Assembly (NCBI RefSeq): GCF_000374125.1
Contig: NZ_KB893643.1
Location: 130,215 to 182,329 of the forward strand
DNA from: Niabella aurantiaca DSM 17617
GTDB taxonomy: Bacteria > Bacteroidota > Bacteroidia > Chitinophagales > Chitinophagaceae
Direction of reading: 5' to 3'
DNA length: 52,115 nucleotides
Positions 1 through 51,148 of this stretch are shown piece after piece. Both the position numbers and the translations under genes were made by a program. The notes beneath the pieces are model-generated. The model searched no databases, was not told the DNA's origin, and saw nothing but the letters and a program-made list of their open reading frames with translations. Within the stretch, counting starts at the first letter, position 1, and each line of letters starts with the position of its first letter.

Positions 1-947
1 ATCCGCGGGAAATACCACCCGCAGATCTACGCGGATGATATGCAGGCAGCGATCAACGGGTACAGCGAAAAGATCAGCGAAAATCAGCGGGAAATACTAC
101 CCGCAGATCTACGCAGATGAAAGGCAGGCAGCGATCAATGGGTACAGCCAAAAGATCAGCGAGGATCCGCGGGAAATACCACCCGCAGATCTACGCGGAT
201 GATATGCAGGCAGCAATCAACGGGTACAACGAAAAGATCAGCGAAAATCAGCGGGAAATACTGCCCGCAGATCTACGCAGATGAAATGCAGGCAACGATC
301 AACGGGTACAGCGAAAAGATCAGCGTAAATCCGCGGGAAACACTGCCCACAGATCTACGCGGATGAAATGCAGGCAGCGATCAATGGGAACAGCCAAAAG
401 ATCAGCGAGGAGCCGCGGGAAATACCACCCGCAGATCTACGCAGATGAAATGCAGGCAGCGATCAACGGGAACAGCGAAAAGATCAGCGAAAATCAGCGG
501 GAAATACTACCCGCAGATCTACGCAGATGAAAGGCAGGCAGCGATCAACGGGAACAGCCAAAAGATCAGCGAGGATCCGCGGGAAATACCACCCGCAGAT
601 CTACGCGGATGATATGCAGGCAGCGATCAACGGGTACAGCGAAAAGATCAGCGAAAATCAGCGGGAAATACTACCCGCAGATCTACGCAGATGAAAGGCA
701 GGCAGCGATCAATGGGAACAGCCAAAAGATCAGCGAGGAGCCGCGGGAAATACTACCCGCAGATCTACGCAGATGGAATGCAGGCAGCGATCAACGGGTA
801 CAGCGAAAAGATCTGCGTAAATCCGCGGGAAATACTACCCGCAGATCTACGCAGATGAAATGCAGGCACCAATCAATGGGTACAGCCAAAAGATCAGCGA
901 GGATCCGCGGGAAACGCTGCCCGCAGATCTACGCGGATGATATGCAG
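1..947. repeat. 82-bp tandem repeat array, left block (12 units)
   Basis: The motif GCAGATCT recurs at 21, 103, 185, 267 and so on to 923 at exactly 82-bp intervals; one copy (unit 5) reads ACAGATCT. Each unit carries an imperfect dyad with two nested levels, ATCAGCG..ATCCGCGGG facing CCCGCAGAT..CGCGGAT, then a spacer with GCAGGCAGCGATCAACGGG. Units differ by a few substitutions (GATATG/GAAATG/GAAAGG; TACAGC/AACAGC). Unit 8 (575-656) is identical to unit 1 (1-82). Because 82 is not a multiple of three, long ORFs through it are artefacts. The array starts before the window and is cut at about 947 by the GxxExxY gene. It contains no gene. Confidence 0.97.
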
Positions 948-972
948 AAATAGAATTCATGAGAGTAGCCGC

Positions 973-1976: not shown

Positions 1977-2507
1977 TTACCGGTCTGACCGGTCATCGTC
2001 CAGGTAGGTAGGCTCCGGCACCCGCTTAAAGCTGAAATGCCGCTGCGCCAGGTAGCTGAGCAATATCACCACTACCGTAGTGCCGATCTGCGCAAAAACA
2101 GGATAGATCCCCCATGCTTCCACCAGGATCTTGAGCAGCACAAAATTAATGGTAAGATTAAACACACAAACCAGCAGGTAACGGAACAGCTGCACCCGTC
2201 CCCGGATCCGGCTGTCGTCGAATACCACATATTTCATCAGGAAAAAACCCACCAGGAAACTGACCACAAAAGAAACCGCCAGCGCCGCCACATGCGATTT
2301 CAGGGCATAAAAACCAAAATGAAAATCATGCCCCTGCAAAATGAACTTATATGTGATATAATAAGACAATAGTCCCAGGAATGTGTTTGAAGCCCCGGAA
2401 ACTGCATACCGGAAGGTTTGCAGCGGCATGATCCGCCTGAACGGCGGATAAAAAAAATCGATCAGCGGGAGAATATGGTCCCGCACACTATGCAGATGTT
2501 GCCTCAT
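1977..2507 (-). CDS. GtrA-like four-helix membrane protein
   Basis: A 176-residue protein with four predicted membrane segments, at about residues 33-54, 70-96, 107-127 and 134-155. GtrA-family hallmarks are visible: FRYAVSGASNT at the start of helix 1, FLMKYVVF after helix 2, QLFRYLLV at helix 3, and a final LAQRHFSFKR. GtrA-like proteins are thought to move lipid-linked sugars across the inner membrane for surface polysaccharide or teichoic-type modification. No glycosyltransferase partner lies next to it, so the substrate is unknown. It is divergent from argS with only about 70 bp between start codons. Confidence 0.85.
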   Translation of the reverse strand: MRQHLHSVRDHILPLIDFFYPPFRRIMPLQTFRYAVSGASNTFLGLLSYYITYKFILQGHDFHFGFYALKSHVAALAVSFVVSFLVGFFLMKYVVFDDSRIRGRVQLFRYLLVCVFNLTINFVLLKILVEAWGIYPVFAQIGTTVVVILLSYLAQRHFSFKRVPEPTYLDDDRSDR

Positions 2508-2556
2508 CGGCGGCGAAGATATTCCTTATTAAAATGATTTCTGCGCCGGCGTTCCT

Positions 2557-2564
2557 TATTTTTG
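2557..2564 (+). promoter_or_regulatory. Candidate -7 element (TATTTTTG) for argS
   Basis: TATTTTTG fits the Bacteroidota TAnnTTTG -7 consensus. It would start transcription about 10 nt before the ATG at 2581. I see no TTG at the expected -33 distance. Confidence 0.5.
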
Positions 2565-2580
2565 CACAAAATTGTTAAGA

Positions 2581-4356
2581 ATGAGTATTGTAGATACATT
2601 GAGGCCGGTTGTTGCAGCTGCATTAAAAGAATTGTATCAAAAGGAAATCGAAGTTTCATCGATTGCGATCAATAGCACCAAACCTGAGTTCGAAGGTGAT
2701 TATACCGTTGTTTTATTCTCGTTTATCAAAGAGCTGAAAAAAAAACCGGAGGAGCTGGGTACGGAGATCGGGCAATACCTGGTTGACCACCGGGCAGACC
2801 TGGTTCATTCCTTTAATGTCATCAAAGGGTTCCTGAACCTGAGCATCGCAGAAAGCTTCTGGACCGGCTTTCTGGATCAGCATTATAAAGATCCTTCTCC
2901 GGGCAGGGAAGCGCAACAGACCTCGAAGGTGATGGTAGAATACTCCTCTCCCAATACCAATAAACCGCTGCACCTGGGCCATCTGCGGAATAATTTCCTG
3001 GGTTGGTCCATTGCTGAAATACTGGCCTATACCGGCAGCACCGTGCAGAAATGCTGCATCTCCAACGACCGGGGCATTCACATCTCCAAATCAATGGTGG
3101 CCTGGCAGCTTTATAGCAACGGCGCTACGCCGGAGTCTACCGGCATTAAGGGCGACCACCTCGTGGGTGATTACTATGTATTGTTCGGCGTAAAACACAA
3201 AGAGCAGATGGCAGCGCTTCTGCAACAAGGCATGAGTAAGGAGGAAGCCGAAAAGAATGCTCCGATCATGAAGGCCGCCCAGGAGATGCTGGTAAACTGG
3301 GAAAAAGGGGATCCGGAAGTGATCGCGCTCTGGAAAAAAATGAACGCGTGGGTATATGAAGGGTTCGACCAGACCTATAAACGCATCGGTACCGACTTTG
3401 ACAAGATCTACTATGAAAGCGATACCTATATTTTAGGAAAGCAATTTGTGGAAGAAGGACTGAAGGACGGCGTGTTCTTTAAAAAGGAAGACGGCAGTGT
3501 ATGGATCGATCTTACCGCCGAAGGGCTGGATGAAAAACTGGTGCTGCGCAAGGATGGAACAGCCGTTTACATTACCCAGGACCTGGGACTGGCCGATGAA
3601 AAGTATAAGGATTTTCCGTACGACCAGAGCATCTACGTGATTGCCGATGAGCAAAATTACCATATGAAAGTATTGCAGCTGATCCTGCAAAAGCTGAACA
3701 AACCCTATGCAGGCGGCATCTACCATATGAGCTATGGCATGGTGGAGCTGCCCAGCGGACGCATGAAAACCCGGGAGGGCACCGTGGTGGATGCCGACGA
3801 TCTGCTGGATGAACTGGTAAAAGTAGCCGCCGCAAAAACAGAAGAACTGGGGAAGGTAAAAGACTTTTCCGAAACGGAACTAAAAGAGCTGCACGATACC
3901 ATTGCGCTGGGCGCCTTAAAATTCTTCCTGCTGCGGGTAGATCCCAAAAAAAGGATGGTGTTCAACCCCGAAGAAAGTATCGACTTCCAGGGATTTACCG
4001 GGCCTTTCATCCAATATACGCATGCGCGCATCAGATCCATCCTCCGGAATGAAGCACCGGCTGCGGATACAGGAGCACCTGGCCCGTTACTGCCGCTGGA
4101 AAAAGAGCTGATCATTTTGCTGGAGCAGTTTCAGACACAAGTACAGCAGGCGGCCGGTGAGCACAACCCTTCGCTGCTGGCCATCTATGCCTTTACCATT
4201 TCCAAACTGTTCAACAGCTTTTATACGGCGCACTCGGTACGCAATGCGGAAAGCCCGGAGAAGAAAGATCTGCGGTTAAAGATCTGCACGCTCGCTGCAG
4301 CCACCATTGCCGCCTCCATGAACTTGCTGGGAATCCGGGTACCGGAACGGATGTAA
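2581..4356 (+). CDS. argS: Arginine--tRNA ligase
   Basis: Class I arginyl-tRNA synthetase, 591 residues, charging tRNA-Arg with arginine using ATP in the cytoplasm. The N-terminal additional domain (about residues 1-110) contacts the tRNA D-loop. The HIGH-type motif is HLGHLRN, preceded by VEYSSPNTNKPLH. The KMSKS-like loop is the degenerate GRMKTREG, as is usual in ArgRS. The C-terminal helical anticodon-binding (DALR-type) domain ends in LLGIRVPERM. I start at the ATG at 2581 (MSIVDTLRP); an in-frame TTG nine bases upstream lies too close to the predicted transcription start. A convergent hairpin terminator separates it from mdh. Confidence 0.97.
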   Translation: MSIVDTLRPVVAAALKELYQKEIEVSSIAINSTKPEFEGDYTVVLFSFIKELKKKPEELGTEIGQYLVDHRADLVHSFNVIKGFLNLSIAESFWTGFLDQHYKDPSPGREAQQTSKVMVEYSSPNTNKPLHLGHLRNNFLGWSIAEILAYTGSTVQKCCISNDRGIHISKSMVAWQLYSNGATPESTGIKGDHLVGDYYVLFGVKHKEQMAALLQQGMSKEEAEKNAPIMKAAQEMLVNWEKGDPEVIALWKKMNAWVYEGFDQTYKRIGTDFDKIYYESDTYILGKQFVEEGLKDGVFFKKEDGSVWIDLTAEGLDEKLVLRKDGTAVYITQDLGLADEKYKDFPYDQSIYVIADEQNYHMKVLQLILQKLNKPYAGGIYHMSYGMVELPSGRMKTREGTVVDADDLLDELVKVAAAKTEELGKVKDFSETELKELHDTIALGALKFFLLRVDPKKRMVFNPEESIDFQGFTGPFIQYTHARIRSILRNEAPAADTGAPGPLLPLEKELIILLEQFQTQVQQAAGEHNPSLLAIYAFTISKLFNSFYTAHSVRNAESPEKKDLRLKICTLAAATIAASMNLLGIRVPERM

Positions 4357-46519: not shown

Positions 46520-47071
46520 TCATTTCTTCTCCTTTGATTCGTAAAACAAAAATGGTTTCTTAAATACGGTTTCCTCTTCGGCCTGCCAGGCTTGATGCCG
46601 CGATCGGTTAAGCTGATTTGAAAAAGAATCCCTAACCAGCAGCTCCATTCCTCCTATAAGACATGAGGCCTTAGGTGGTTTATCTCCCAACGGGTTCCGC
46701 AGATTCACGTTTGCACGCACCAAAGACTCCAACGACCAACGCGCAATAGAAAACCCAGGACCTCCATTGTTCTCTGGGAAGTAGTTTTTATACTGTATAC
46801 CAGGATTTCGGCAGACAGAATACGACGATTCAACAATCAGTTCCGCCACCTCCTCCGGAACTTCTCCCAGCTTACCGGCGGGGAGCCAGGTGCCGGGATT
46901 AATGGGCTCCTTGCAATACAATGGTATATTGTGCCCAGTTCCATTTAAAACATATGATATCCAGGGCCATTTAGTTTCTTCATCGAACTCAAGGATAACG
47001 TTCTTTACGCCCGCCGGAAGATCCACGATCAGCACGCGGGCCTTTTCTGTTTCAATTAATTTGTGTTTCAT
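46520..47071 (-). CDS. Unknown early protein (183 residues)
   Basis: Begins MKHKLIETEKARVLIVDLP, with a conserved-type block NGGPGFSIARWSLESLVRANVNL and RHQAWQAEEETVFKKPFLFY near the end. ATGA overlap with the methyltransferase gene. Not recognised. Confidence 0.72.
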   Translation of the reverse strand: MKHKLIETEKARVLIVDLPAGVKNVILEFDEETKWPWISYVLNGTGHNIPLYCKEPINPGTWLPAGKLGEVPEEVAELIVESSYSVCRNPGIQYKNYFPENNGGPGFSIARWSLESLVRANVNLRNPLGDKPPKASCLIGGMELLVRDSFSNQLNRSRHQAWQAEEETVFKKPFLFYESKEKK

Positions 47072-47814
47072 GAATAAAGTTTTTCGTATTGATTAATGGC
47101 GCTGAATATGGCCTCCGGTATCTGGCGAACAACCGCATTACCACACCCACCTAACCTTTTAACAACGTCCAGTCTTTTGGGAGCCCCATCATCCACTCTG
47201 AAAATCGGGGGTTCGCTATAGCCTTGTTGAAATCGTAGAAAAGGATGGCATTGTGTATCCAATGCATCCGCTTTGACACTCTTTTCAATGCAGCCTGCTT
47301 TGACACTGTGTAGTATGCCTTTCCATCTGTGTGAAGAGGGGTAGGCAAGTACCCACAGGCGCTTCCTGATGTGCGGCATTCCAAAGTCGGAAGCTGATAT
47401 AATTTCCCATTCTGCATTATACCCGATTTCGGAAAGGTCATAAAGGACTTGCTCGAACCCTCTTTTAAGGAGCAAAGGTGAATTTTCAATAAGGATGTAT
47501 CCAGGATGAATCTCTTTGATACCTCGCGCATACTCACTCCAAAGTCCGCTTCTTGATGCGTAAATCCCCCCCCCAAGCCCCGATGCTGAAATGTCCTGGC
47601 ATGGGAATCCTCCCGAAATAATGTCAATTGCTCCATCATAATCTTTAAAATTTACCGTCTTAATATCCCCGTGTTGCCTGCATTCAGGAAAGTGATGGCT
47701 TGTGAGCCTATTACACCAATCATCTATTTCAACCGACATCACGTTATCCCATCCTACATTGCGGGCTGCCAGTTGAAAACACCCAATCCCGTTGAAAAAT
47801 GCCGCGTGCCTCAT
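47068..47814 (-). CDS. dcm: DNA (cytosine-5-)methyltransferase
   Basis: 248 residues, short for the family (a small target-recognition domain). Motif I FFNGIGCFQLA (AdoMet), motif IV GGFPCQDIS with the catalytic Cys, motif VI ENSPLLL (ENS in place of ENV), motif VIII IRKRLWV, and motif X GCGNAVV are all present. It methylates cytosine C5 in a sequence-specific way, commonly to shield phage DNA. No cognate restriction enzyme is nearby, so it is an orphan. A 163-codon ORF in another frame overlaps most of it. Neighbours overlap by ATGA on both sides. Confidence 0.94.
   Translation of the reverse strand: MRHAAFFNGIGCFQLAARNVGWDNVMSVEIDDWCNRLTSHHFPECRQHGDIKTVNFKDYDGAIDIISGGFPCQDISASGLGGGIYASRSGLWSEYARGIKEIHPGYILIENSPLLLKRGFEQVLYDLSEIGYNAEWEIISASDFGMPHIRKRLWVLAYPSSHRWKGILHSVKAGCIEKSVKADALDTQCHPFLRFQQGYSEPPIFRVDDGAPKRLDVVKRLGGCGNAVVRQIPEAIFSAINQYEKLYS
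47151..47639 (-). CDS. Overlapping-frame protein within dcm
   Basis: 162 residues read in another frame of the same strand, wholly inside dcm. It begins MMEQLTLFREDSHARTF, contains FPKSGIMQNGKLYQLPTLE and a later LPTP, and ends NPRFSEWMMGLPKDWTLLKG. I recall phage proteins of just this pattern (LTLFPEDS...SGMMRNG...PTP...WMMGFPxGWT) annotated as methyltransferase-associated. The frame is the same as dcm's +1/-1 relation throughout: dcm GGFPCQDIS lies over REDSHARTF. Whether it is translated is open; a shadow frame kept open by dcm conservation is the alternative. Confidence 0.5.
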   Translation of the reverse strand: MMEQLTLFREDSHARTFQHRGLGGGFTHQEADFGVSMREVSKRFILDTSLLKIHLCSLKEGSSKSFMTFPKSGIMQNGKLYQLPTLECRTSGSACGYLPTPLHTDGKAYYTVSKQAALKRVSKRMHWIHNAILFYDFNKAIANPRFSEWMMGLPKDWTLLKG

Positions 47815-47903
47815 TTCTTCCTATTTACCTCCGCCACTATACCGGTAATCAAACCGATCATAGCAATCGCGGAGAGGGTTAAAAAAAGGGTTGTAGGGGT
47901 CAT
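47811..47903 (-). CDS. 30-residue single-helix membrane micropeptide
   Basis: ATG 47903 overlaps the DnaA-like stop (TGA 47900-47902), and its own TGA (47811-47813) overlaps the dcm start, both as ATGA. Sequence: MTPTTLFLTLSAIAMIGLIT followed by GIVAEVNRKK. One hydrophobic helix and a basic end; same style as 42444 and 43542. Confidence 0.7.
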   Translation of the reverse strand: MTPTTLFLTLSAIAMIGLITGIVAEVNRKK

Positions 47904-48406
47904 GACACAACTGTAAATAATTTAATAAAGTCAACTTTGTTAAGTTGTATTTCTATCTCATCCCCGTTCGTGATAAAAAACCGGCTTGCATTCCCACAAA
48001 TGGATCTAAACTTGGCAAGCGTCATAGGTCCGGATGACAATTCCTTTATTTTATTTTTGTGCCTATCGTAGATTTCAAATAGGTTATTTATGTGGTAAAC
48101 CACCTTGTAGGCCCTGTCTATTGCTGATATATCAATATCTGAGAATCTACCAAGTATTTCCATGGCTTTTGCATCCCCTGTCTGAACGAGCTCAGAAACT
48201 CGTCTTATGCCATGTATTACAGTTGTATGGTCCACATTGAACATCCGACTTAGCTCAGACTTGTTTAATCCGTAGTACTTATACAGGTAATAATGTGATA
48301 CCTGCCTGGCTAAAGGGGCGTCCCCTCTCCTTGTTGTACTGTTTACGTCATCAAAAGGAACGCCAGCTGCGTCTGCTGCTCTTTTATAAATACTTTGCAC
48401 TGTCAT
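47900..48406 (-). CDS. DnaA domain-IV-like replication protein
   Basis: Start at ATG 48406 (MTVQSIYKRAADAAGV); the longer frame to 48463 runs through origin repeats. 168 residues. Residues 31-70 match the DNA-binding domain of DnaA: PLARQVSHYYLYKYYGLNKS then the DHTTV-type recognition helix NVDHTTVIHGIRRV. No AAA+ domain. It is encoded beside an iteron/AT-rich stretch and the primase-helicase, so it probably binds the phage origin. Confidence 0.88.
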   Translation of the reverse strand: MTVQSIYKRAADAAGVPFDDVNSTTRRGDAPLARQVSHYYLYKYYGLNKSELSRMFNVDHTTVIHGIRRVSELVQTGDAKAMEILGRFSDIDISAIDRAYKVVYHINNLFEIYDRHKNKIKELSSGPMTLAKFRSICGNASRFFITNGDEIEIQLNKVDFIKLFTVVS

Positions 48407-48421
48407 ATTATGATTTTTTAT

Positions 48422-48599
48422 TGTAACTGATGTAATCGATATGTAATCGATTTTGTAACCCATTTCTCATTGATAATCAACTCCGTAACCGATGTAACCG
48501 TTTTTTTGAGAAAAATTTTCTATTTTTTATTTTTCTATTTTTTATTTTATATAAAAGGGTAGAGTGCGAAAAAAGCGTTACATCGGTTACACGGTTACA
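48422..48599. other. Probable phage replication origin: nine TGTAAC-type iterons around an AT-rich core
   Basis: Six direct TGTAAY/CGTAAC copies begin at 48422, 48431, 48442, 48454, 48484 and 48493. Three inverted copies (GTTACA) begin at 48577, 48586 and 48594. Between them 48501-48560 is almost pure A/T with repeated TATTTTTTATTTT tracts, a natural unwinding element. Flanked by the DnaA-like gene and the primase-helicase gene, whose 3' end enters the inverted iterons. Confidence 0.78.
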
Positions 48600-51148
48600 A
48601 AGTCAATACTGGACTGCGTTTCAGCTGTAACCGAAATGCCATTCCCTGCGTCTAAACCCATATATAATCGGTTACCATCCTCCCGAACCTTCTTTTCAAC
48701 CAGTTTCAATGAGAAATTTTCTGAACAGGTTTTAACAGCCTTTTTAAATCTTTTCATTGAATACTCCTTTCCATCCACTCCTGATATTGTCAAAAACTCT
48801 TCCCTTAGGTCAGATACTTTTTGAAGCTTAGAGCAACCATTTGCTGAATAATCCTCAAACCAGCTTACAAACTCTTCACCCCATTGTGATTTTAGTTTCT
48901 TTAATTTATAATTCCTCGACTGCTTCAAATCAACAATTCCATTTTTTAAATAATACCGGATGCAGAAGAACATAAAATTGTAAAACCGGTTCCACTCGTC
49001 ATTATCCCAGTCGTCAAAGAGAAGGTGCCCAAATTCATCGAGCGGCGTTTTGTCCGGGCTGAAGTAGCTGGCAAACTCGATGATCTTAAGCCGCCGCTTG
49101 CTATGGTTCGAATTATCATTTACGGCATAATTAGTGGTCACCAGCAGCTTGGGGCTATCTTTGTAGGGTATAAATAGCTCATCCTGGTTTTTTTTCTCGA
49201 TGGTCGCTCCCTCGGTGATCAGGTTATACAGTGCCTGGAAATCGAAATTATGGATCACGTCTTGCAGAATCACAGCCCTTGTGTTCAATTTTATCCGCTG
49301 GTAGGCGAAATTTTTCTTATTTGGACTGAAAGTTTTACCATCGATGGTAACCACCGGCATCATGTGTTCAAATGCCTTTGTGAATATCCCCTTACCGGTT
49401 CCGCCGCCCTTACTTTCATCTTCCGTCTCTTCGCCCAAAATAACGGCATACGGCCGGGCCGGATCCTTGTACTTATGGAGAACATACCCGATCAGAGATA
49501 TGGCCTGTAAAAGCCTGTTTTGGTCATCTCCGGTAATTTTTTCGACAAACAGGGAGAACTCACACTCATTATCATCATCCTGGGAAATATCAACGTTAAA
49601 ATCGATCAGGTCGCTATCCCATATCACTTTGTGAATCCCCCCGTGATTAAACAGCTTAATTTCATCTTTTGTGATCCGGACAATTCCGTTCCGGTACGGA
49701 ATAAAGCACTCCGTTTTCGTATCCTTTAAAAAATCAATATTGATCGGCTTAAGGAACTCAAAAAGGCTGTCTGAGAAAATATCCCTACTGTGGTATATCT
49801 TCTCCAAAAGGTTTTCCTCAGTGTATTCTACTCCTTCGATACCTAAATCTTTCACATACCCCTCAATGTGCTTTTTAATCCGCTCGGTCGTTGTTTCTTC
49901 CAGGATATTGTCCACGCATTTGACAATTTTGAATATTGGTGACCCCTTGTCGTAGAAAAATAAGCCAAATCCCTGCGCGTTCAAGAACTCCACAAACCGG
50001 GTATACACCAATGATAGCTTTTCAGATTCTTTATCCCAGAACCAAAAATCATCCGTTTCGTCATCCTTATTCAAAGATTTGATCACCTGTTTCGCAGCCT
50101 CTGGAGTCATATTATTGTCCAGCGCTACCCGTTGGGCTATTCTGTCGTCATCCAACCCCTGGTCCTGCATCCGGGCAATATCCCTACGGACCGATTTATT
50201 TAGCTTCTTAAACGGCTCTCCGTAGCCCATTTCAAGGAGTTTTTTTGCAGCGACCTTCCAGTCGTTACCACATTCAAGCATCGCAAACACCGCGGAGGGC
50301 TTATAACCCTTATTGGGTTCAAATTCAGAAGAGGTGGTAAAAACGCTGAAAAGGTTCATTTCGCGGTTAAAATCACCACTGCTTTTTGATGTTGTTTCCC
50401 CGGGGCGAAGGACCACTACTTTTTTTTCATTCTCTTTTACCGTTTTCCATCCGTGCGAATTAAGCAGTCCTACTATATCCCCCCTGTCATTATAATCACT
50501 GAATGGCGACTTCTGGAACGGCTTCTTTTCCGTGTAGTCGTGGTGCTTGTATTCCTCAATGACTTTATTAAATGATCGCGCTATTTCAAGTATCACCCGG
50601 CGTTCATCTTCCGATATCTCTGGAATAGACCCGATATCTCCCTGAGTAAACTTATATCCGGTTGTTGGCGGCGCTATCACATACCCGGACTGCCCCCTGG
50701 TCTCAATCAACACTTTCACTTTCTCATGCGGGTTTTTAGCCTTTTCTTCATCTGTGGTAAATCGCTGGGCCAGCTTTTTATTTCCTTCGATAACTGGGCA
50801 CCGGTAGTAAATGTGATATCCATTGCCTTTTGTCTTTGCGATTACCAGGCGTTGAGCCAAATCAGAATTTGCGTCTGTTATTTCCTGTATGTAGTCCTGG
50901 AATAATGATTTCGTAGTATCATACTTACAATCAATATCGATCACTTCAAGGTTTCCTGAAAGTCTACCACACAGTACAGCGATACCTTCTGTTTTGTGGT
51001 GCCCAAACATTTCCTTCAGATCATCATCGGTTGCAAAATTCAACTCATATTTTTTCCATGGCAGGACGGCTCTCTTATTTGCATCAGTCGCAATAACACT
51101 AACGCCGGACTTAATATATTCTTTCGCTATTTCTATTCTCTTACTCAT
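48587..51148 (-). CDS. Primase-helicase (prim-pol AEP plus SF3-type helicase)
   Basis: 853 residues. The N-terminal prim-pol domain (about 1-200) has DID at 71-73, His112 in GNGYHIYY, and ETRGQSGYVIAPP (149-161). After a linker (primase C-terminal helices about 300-350, YGEPFKKLNKSVRRDI), the DUF5906-like P-loop helicase follows: Walker A GGGTGKG near 585, VILQDV as Walker B and LLVTTNYA as the sensor motif. It would open and prime the origin next to it. The stop codon lies inside the origin iterons. Confidence 0.92.
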   Translation of the reverse strand: MSKRIEIAKEYIKSGVSVIATDANKRAVLPWKKYELNFATDDDLKEMFGHHKTEGIAVLCGRLSGNLEVIDIDCKYDTTKSLFQDYIQEITDANSDLAQRLVIAKTKGNGYHIYYRCPVIEGNKKLAQRFTTDEEKAKNPHEKVKVLIETRGQSGYVIAPPTTGYKFTQGDIGSIPEISEDERRVILEIARSFNKVIEEYKHHDYTEKKPFQKSPFSDYNDRGDIVGLLNSHGWKTVKENEKKVVVLRPGETTSKSSGDFNREMNLFSVFTTSSEFEPNKGYKPSAVFAMLECGNDWKVAAKKLLEMGYGEPFKKLNKSVRRDIARMQDQGLDDDRIAQRVALDNNMTPEAAKQVIKSLNKDDETDDFWFWDKESEKLSLVYTRFVEFLNAQGFGLFFYDKGSPIFKIVKCVDNILEETTTERIKKHIEGYVKDLGIEGVEYTEENLLEKIYHSRDIFSDSLFEFLKPINIDFLKDTKTECFIPYRNGIVRITKDEIKLFNHGGIHKVIWDSDLIDFNVDISQDDDNECEFSLFVEKITGDDQNRLLQAISLIGYVLHKYKDPARPYAVILGEETEDESKGGGTGKGIFTKAFEHMMPVVTIDGKTFSPNKKNFAYQRIKLNTRAVILQDVIHNFDFQALYNLITEGATIEKKNQDELFIPYKDSPKLLVTTNYAVNDNSNHSKRRLKIIEFASYFSPDKTPLDEFGHLLFDDWDNDEWNRFYNFMFFCIRYYLKNGIVDLKQSRNYKLKKLKSQWGEEFVSWFEDYSANGCSKLQKVSDLREEFLTISGVDGKEYSMKRFKKAVKTCSENFSLKLVEKKVREDGNRLYMGLDAGNGISVTAETQSSIDFVTV

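Follow-up and report, generated by a model that had tools for sequence, protein, structure and literature searches.

It is rare for two conserved proteins to be encoded in a long overlap on one strand, and gene callers usually drop such overlaps. As a kind, the two-polypeptide C5 methyltransferase is already known; in M.EcoHK31I, as Lee and colleagues reportedly described in 1995, the small subunit is encoded in another frame inside the gene of the large one. In a published account, M.EcoHK31I (YGGCCR) consists of a large polypeptide with motifs I-VIII and X and a small polypeptide with motif IX, and its recognition domain is assigned to the large subunit (PMC3404938). The same account gives a different division for M.AquI (CYCGRG), whose large polypeptide contains motifs I-VIII and part of the variable region and whose small polypeptide contains the distal variable region and motifs IX-X (PMC3404938). 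A further arrangement is that of ShiLan, in which an out-of-frame HNH endonuclease lies as an insertion within a phage methylase gene (PMC11855218). A search of the open-access literature for nested C5 methyltransferase subunits in phages found no description.

The locus considered here belongs to a prophage and lies in a stretch of 52,115 nucleotides from Niabella aurantiaca DSM 17617 (the window). It probably encodes a two-polypeptide C5-cytosine DNA methyltransferase from a single stretch of DNA, with the dcm product as one subunit (alpha) and the product of a nested ORF as the other (beta), a reading drawn from sequence comparison.

The window locus

The dcm gene of the window (47068-47814, minus strand, as are all features of the locus) encodes a C5-methyltransferase of 248 amino acids that matches PF00145 with E=3e-37. 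The second ORF (47151-47639) lies entirely within dcm in its +1 frame. The preliminary description had reported it as an ORF of 163 codons, and this agrees with the 162 codons plus stop found here. That description had also paired particular motifs of the two frames, and three such pairings hold. Beta EDSHAR (47595-47612) overlaps alpha motif IV, GGFPCQDIS (47587-47613); beta LPTP (47337-47348) comes directly past alpha motif VIII, GMPHIRKRLW (47353-47382); and beta NPRFSEWMMGLPKDWT (47166-47213), which profile alignment places on C5-methyltransferase motif IX, overlies alpha RVDDGAPKR (47173-47199). Within its N-terminal domain beta also carries FPKSGIMQNGKLY (47397-47435), for which the family consensus is SGMMRNGxxYxLP. 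Between motifs VIII and IX (47214-47352) beta appears constrained in the family and alpha would be an open linker, while the comparison for the window is mixed. Alpha motif X, GNAVV (47128-47142), is in the dcm frame past the end of beta.

Alpha resembles the monomeric C5 methyltransferases (M.HhaI, PF00145) over motifs I-VIII but is without the C-terminal Pfam half: its match covers positions 4-169 of the 324 in the PF00145 profile, whereas canonical dcm controls (30 loci from the host's phylum) match at about 1-323. Judged by this coverage against the controls, alpha does not hold motifs I-X in one chain as the monomeric type does. Motifs I-VIII and X are present and motif IX was not recognised, as in the large polypeptide of M.EcoHK31I. 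A regular expression for motif IX likewise matched none of 329 alpha chains of the window's gene layout (class I, below), but it is a weak test that matches just 7 of the 30 canonical dcms.

Beta matches phrog_1008 in the PHROG library (E=1e-17), as do its relatives, and this family is listed only as 'DNA methyltransferase'. The phage-protein motifs named in the preliminary description belong to it, and a tblastn search with the second protein reached 102 phage records at E<=0.01. Modelled alone, beta gave a poor and uninformative structure (pLDDT 59.9, pTM 0.23); this might be expected if beta folds on alpha and is not counted as evidence.

A DnaA-like helix-turn-helix protein, a Prim-Pol primase and a Cro/C1-type regulator are among the proteins encoded nearby. 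Four of the seven neighbours given to Pfam and all four given to PADLOC were without a match, and no restriction enzyme was recognised among the neighbouring ORFs with either resource. At 47900-51148 the DnaA-type helix-turn-helix protein adjoins the Prim-Pol primase-like protein, likely a phage replication initiation module. Elsewhere in the window, a repeat-like ORF (609-953, plus strand) has recurring QIYAD/NGNSQKIS-like units. The host genome holds a second PF00145 match (G000:C20:78606-78953).

Three gene layouts

Relatives of the locus fall into three layouts. In class I, the window type, dcm has motifs I-VIII and X, and the nested second ORF ends in NPxFxEWMMGFPxxWT or a variant. In class II the gene is split: dcm ends after motif VIII, and the second ORF continues in its own frame with the IX-like EWMMG..GW and a motif X that resembles GNGVVPQQA, with variants among the 9 loci. 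In class III the C-terminal parts are fused in frame with dcm into a single chain (12 loci; 30 loci with 22 distinct proteins in a wider set).

The split and fused layouts suggest what beta is. Against a profile template built from 11 of the 30 canonical control dcms, the C-terminus of class II aligns on canonical motifs IX-X (E=0.0037, HHalign probability 8.9), and that of class I aligns best on canonical motif IX, with weak similarity (E=0.14-0.17) and in the correct position. All five class II proteins scanned match phrog_116 downstream of the part of that profile which dcm matches (E 2e-5 to 7e-9), and one also matches phrog_363. Among three class III chains compared with Pfam, one matches PF00145 over positions 2-315 and two only over motifs I-VIII. 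In the fused chain of locus L052, most of motifs I-VIII and residues 292-379 were modelled well, and the middle is disordered; Foldseek matches to M.HhaI are firm for motifs I-VIII, and those extending to the C-terminus have an rmsd of 10-12 A and carry little weight. The simplest reading of these comparisons is that the C-terminal half of beta would be the missing C-terminal part of the methyltransferase.

In class III the +1 frame still matches beta at 30 of 30 loci, and its N-terminal part scores above all 200 shuffles in each of the nine non-redundant ones. Where the dcm frame starts an LLPTP block, this N-terminal part of beta stops in 14 of 16 class III loci (L052, L062, L071, L075, L087 and others), the exceptions being L063 and L110. 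Such LLPTPxAxDG-like blocks, one to several of them, stand before motif IX in L027, L030, L052, L071, L087 and other class II and III loci, and the repeats recall stacked target-recognition modules. A frameshift origin of class III was considered; inspection by eye of the +1 stop in these 16 loci showed no slippery site shared among them.

Openness of the second frame

The length of the open second frame was compared with chance by permuting dcm codons among synonymous positions, which preserves both the protein and its codon use. In the window, the +1 run is 166 codons long against a mean of 68 in 1000 shuffles (p=0.002), and the +2 frame of the same shuffles gives p=0.36. The test was extended to 102 loci, non-redundant at 70% (74 of class I, 19 of class II and 9 of class III). 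The mean longest +1 run in class I is 218 codons, compared with 100 when shuffled, with a combined p=4e-97 and 68 of the 74 loci at p<=0.05; class II (p=2e-6) and class III (p=0.002) are open beyond chance as well. The +2 frame of the class I loci gives p=0.87, and among the 30 canonical dcm genes +1 openness has p=0.97, with none at p<=0.05.

Profiles of beta were scored against the same kind of shuffle in 62 class I loci outside the seed. The +1 translation lies above all 200 shuffles in 57 of the 62 with the N-terminal profile and in 61 with the C-terminal profile. With the N-terminal profile, shuffled genes retain a mean of 54 bits against an observed median of 101. The worry that the second frame could be a shadow of dcm thus held in part, as about half of this score comes from dcm conservation, and the remainder is unexplained by a shadow. 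As independent proof the profile comparison was dropped: the test is confounded by inherited codons, because the +2-frame profile also beats the shuffles (mean z 2.96 vs 4.1). The case for dual coding rests on openness, the controls and position-specific substitutions.

The dcm frame, for its part, is open across motifs VIII-IX in all 288 distinct segments, where chance, given beta, would leave it open in 8.5% per locus. These segments were drawn from 329 class I loci after the removal of duplicates, short segments and segments with a stop in beta. Class I is itself partly defined by dcm openness across VIII-IX, but 79 of 80 loci collected with a dcm profile fall in this class.

Which frame is constrained where

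In the +1 arrangement, position 3 of a dcm codon is position 2 of the other frame, and position 1 of a dcm codon is the other frame's position 3. Substitutions were compared in a strict set of pairs drawn from 320 distinct loci, in which dcm identity across pairs never reaches 80%, comprising 25 pairs of class I, 10 of class II and 5 of class III. In class I, the values at dcm positions 1, 2 and 3 (p1/p2/p3) are 0.052/0.018/0.338 in the dcm-only 5′ part, 0.061/0.019/0.129 in the overlap before motif IV and 0.052/0.021/0.115 over motifs IV-VIII. They become 0.197/0.070/0.070 between motifs VIII and IX, 0.081/0.031/0.064 at motif IX and 0.155/0.092/0.311 in the dcm-only 3′ part.

Over motifs IV-VIII, dcm third positions thus vary far less than in the dcm-only 5′ part (0.115 vs 0.338, p=4e-22). 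Between VIII and IX the periodicity is inverted, with p1 above p3 in 22 of the 25 pairs and the reverse in one; changes there are 347 synonymous and 212 non-synonymous in the +1 frame, against 68 and 495 in the dcm frame. In the motif IX region the sign test of p1 and p3 is not significant. Both frames appear constrained over IV-VIII, the second frame appears dominant from VIII to IX, both appear constrained at IX and dcm alone after it. A larger, partly redundant set of 41 class I pairs, in which 9 sequences are used more than once, gives the same pattern more sharply (p3/p1 over VIII-IX 0.20 vs 0.36 in the strict set). The preliminary description had expected normal synonymous variation in dcm if the second frame were a shadow; instead, third positions are cut about threefold over IV-VIII, and the inversion over VIII-IX follows.

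Class II shows the same suppression (p3 over IV-VIII 0.139 vs 0.215, p=6e-5, 10 strict pairs). In class III, between motif VIII and the +1 stop, p1 exceeds p3 in three of the five strict pairs and the reverse holds in one, with 26 synonymous and 40 non-synonymous changes in the +1 frame; p3/p1 is 0.81 in this set vs 0.42 (11 pairs) and 0.20 (4 pairs) in earlier ones. For class III, selection on the +1 frame is at most suggested. The window has no close relative, and in comparisons with five relatives of 41-49% dcm identity, p1 exceeds p3 over VIII-IX in three, equals it in one and falls below it in one. The pattern expected of purifying selection on both frames over shared bases is thus found at the level of the family and is mixed for the window alone. 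Dual coding under selection is well supported by these comparisons for the family, and for the window locus by openness. In its choice between two real proteins and a dcm shadow, the preliminary description was right to take dual coding seriously, as openness, the controls and the substitutions support two proteins; the identity of the second was absent from it.

Distribution and annotation

Viral loci fetched with a dcm profile carry a +1 match in 80 of 80 cases (E<=5e-26); these are the best 80 of 600 candidates, and the clade was preselected, since the 11 dcm genes behind the profile had been reached via the second frame. All 160 loci fetched with two single dcm proteins also carry a +1 match (157 nested, 3 counted as split). 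The same is true of 80 loci that the dcm profile reached in bacterial genome records, many of which are metagenome-assembled: 76 are nested and 4 were scored as split. The bacterial loci come from Bacteroidota, Proteobacteria, Actinomycetes, Firmicutes, Planctomycetota, Acidobacteria, Spirochaetes, members of Verrucomicrobia and others, according to record titles, with some phylum names assigned by the author. Premature stops in many members, which the preliminary description had expected of a shadow, did not appear: the second-frame match is stop-free in every one of 369 + 80 loci with a dcm match. Among the 30 canonical dcm controls, a single locus has a marginal second-frame match (E=0.003, 60 codons). 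Left out of the counts were L091 and L102, which have no dcm match, and L032, a copy from the window's own genome. In dcm, L015 and the window are identical.

A search for phrog_1008 among 198 genomes from the host's phylum found it once, in Niabella's own genome. By its sequence matches the system is spread across many phyla, yet in the single host sample searched it was uncommon. In E. coli, a search with the dcm of one enterobacterial class I relative found a relative in 4 of 5426 genomes, where its sole annotation is DNA cytosine methyltransferase. One locus, L190 (about 2438-3181), has a single in-frame stop in the dcm frame before motif VI and an intact nested ORF2; a sequencing error or a decayed alpha is possible.

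Deposited annotations rarely give both genes. Among 14 phage loci inspected, 8 have only dcm deposited as a gene, 3 have only the second frame (in one case partly) and 3 have both, such that one frame alone is annotated in 11 of the 14 records.

Translation and identity of the second protein

In some class I loci, the beta ATG stands 4 nt after that of dcm. In the dcm-profile sets, 7 of 60 viral class I loci and 16 of 55 bacterial ones have this pairing; 3 of 10 loci from phage records also have it, against none of 53 in a set fetched with a single dcm protein. The raw count of 80 in 201 class I loci is inflated, as 70 of the 80 come from a scan whose pattern, MNELALFA, encodes that start. A GGAG-like stretch lies upstream in 58 of 83 distinct paired-start loci. 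In the window, the +1 frame is open only from 47651, four codons upstream of the beta ATG, and entry into it must therefore be inside dcm; the ATG itself is 175 nt into dcm, with no evident ribosome-binding (GGAG-like) stretch. The odds of separate initiation are lowered because the paired-ATG count by source is smaller than the raw one, but a separate start for beta is still the favoured reading of the sequences.

The alternative that survives best, though improbable, is ribosome slippage out of dcm into the +1 frame, giving a single chain whose front bears the alpha motifs and whose back is the beta part. Split relatives do have all their C-terminal motifs in the +1 frame, fused relatives form such a chain without any shift, and most class I loci outside the MNELALFA scan, including the window, have no ATG 4 nt past the dcm start. 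However, suppression of dcm third positions spans IV-VIII, and also the part before motif IV in loci open that far, and a late shift needs neither. The paired ATGs of some loci, a class I dcm frame kept open to its own motif X and the absence, judged by eye, of a shared slippery sequence at the +1 stops of 16 class III loci argue against slippage as well.

Beta could also be an unrelated overprinted protein, such as a regulator or a counter-defence factor, tied to dcm by its DNA only. By sequence it has no match in Pfam (nor do seven further second-frame proteins), in PADLOC or among PDB sequences, and the +1 frame persists in all 30 class III loci though the catalytic chain there has its own C-terminal motifs. 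This is nonetheless quite unlikely, as the beta C-terminus aligns in the right position with the IX-X part of C5 methyltransferases, and class III has a homologue of beta in the frame of dcm. That conserved dcm motifs passively force a look-alike +1 translation that is never made can be set aside almost entirely: second-frame homologues do coincide with dcm in the examined loci, as the preliminary description had foreseen for a shadow, and shuffled dcm keeps part of the N-terminal profile score, but class I openness, third-position suppression with inverted periodicity, the C-terminal profile result and canonical dcms without excess openness all speak against it.

A probable methyltransferase divided between two frames

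In the two-polypeptide reading, alpha would provide the AdoMet-binding and catalytic motifs I-VIII, a poorly conserved linker and then motif X. Beta would be translated from its own start within dcm and would contribute its N-terminal domain, the LPTP segment at the target-recognition position and a putative motif IX, to which its C-terminus has a weak similarity in the correct position. The two chains would assemble post-translationally, and the resulting single modification enzyme would probably serve as an orphan prophage methylase protecting the phage DNA. The subunit assignment is drawn from comparative evidence; from it we infer separate initiation, assembly, a recognition region held by beta and methylation activity.

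This division resembles M.EcoHK31I in that alpha holds motifs I-VIII and X, like the large polypeptide of that enzyme, and in that beta is encoded in another frame inside the alpha gene; beta would correspond to the small polypeptide if its weakly matching C-terminus is motif IX. It differs, in a comparison made by description only, in that the recognition segment between VIII and IX appears to evolve as beta here, whereas in M.EcoHK31I it is placed in the large subunit, and in that no restriction gene was recognised near the window locus. The split of M.AquI is the layout of the class II relatives; the window locus differs from it by full nesting and by having motif X still in alpha. The ShiLan gene likewise has a second protein in another frame of a phage methylase gene, but there as a mobile insertion, while here the second frame overlies core methyltransferase motifs.

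A more specific scheme has about an even chance of being correct. In it, the recognition region would have moved from the catalytic chain to the nested gene, leaving alpha between VIII and IX as merely an open linker to motif X, and the N-terminal domain of beta would have a role of its own, kept in the +1 frame even where alpha has the recognition region, IX and X fused to it. Confidence in it was reduced because the strict class III result is weaker.

Implications

Within the searches made, three aspects appear new: the breadth of the system, the shift of the main coding frame to beta over the recognition region, and the retention of the N-terminal part of beta in fused genes. Same-strand dual coding of this kind is found repeatedly, both in phages and in bacterial records from many phyla. 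If the two-polypeptide reading is true, many of the phage genes annotated as 'dcm' encode only half an enzyme and would seem inactive if expressed on their own. Taken together, the nested, split and fused forms would then show the division of an enzyme across two reading frames.
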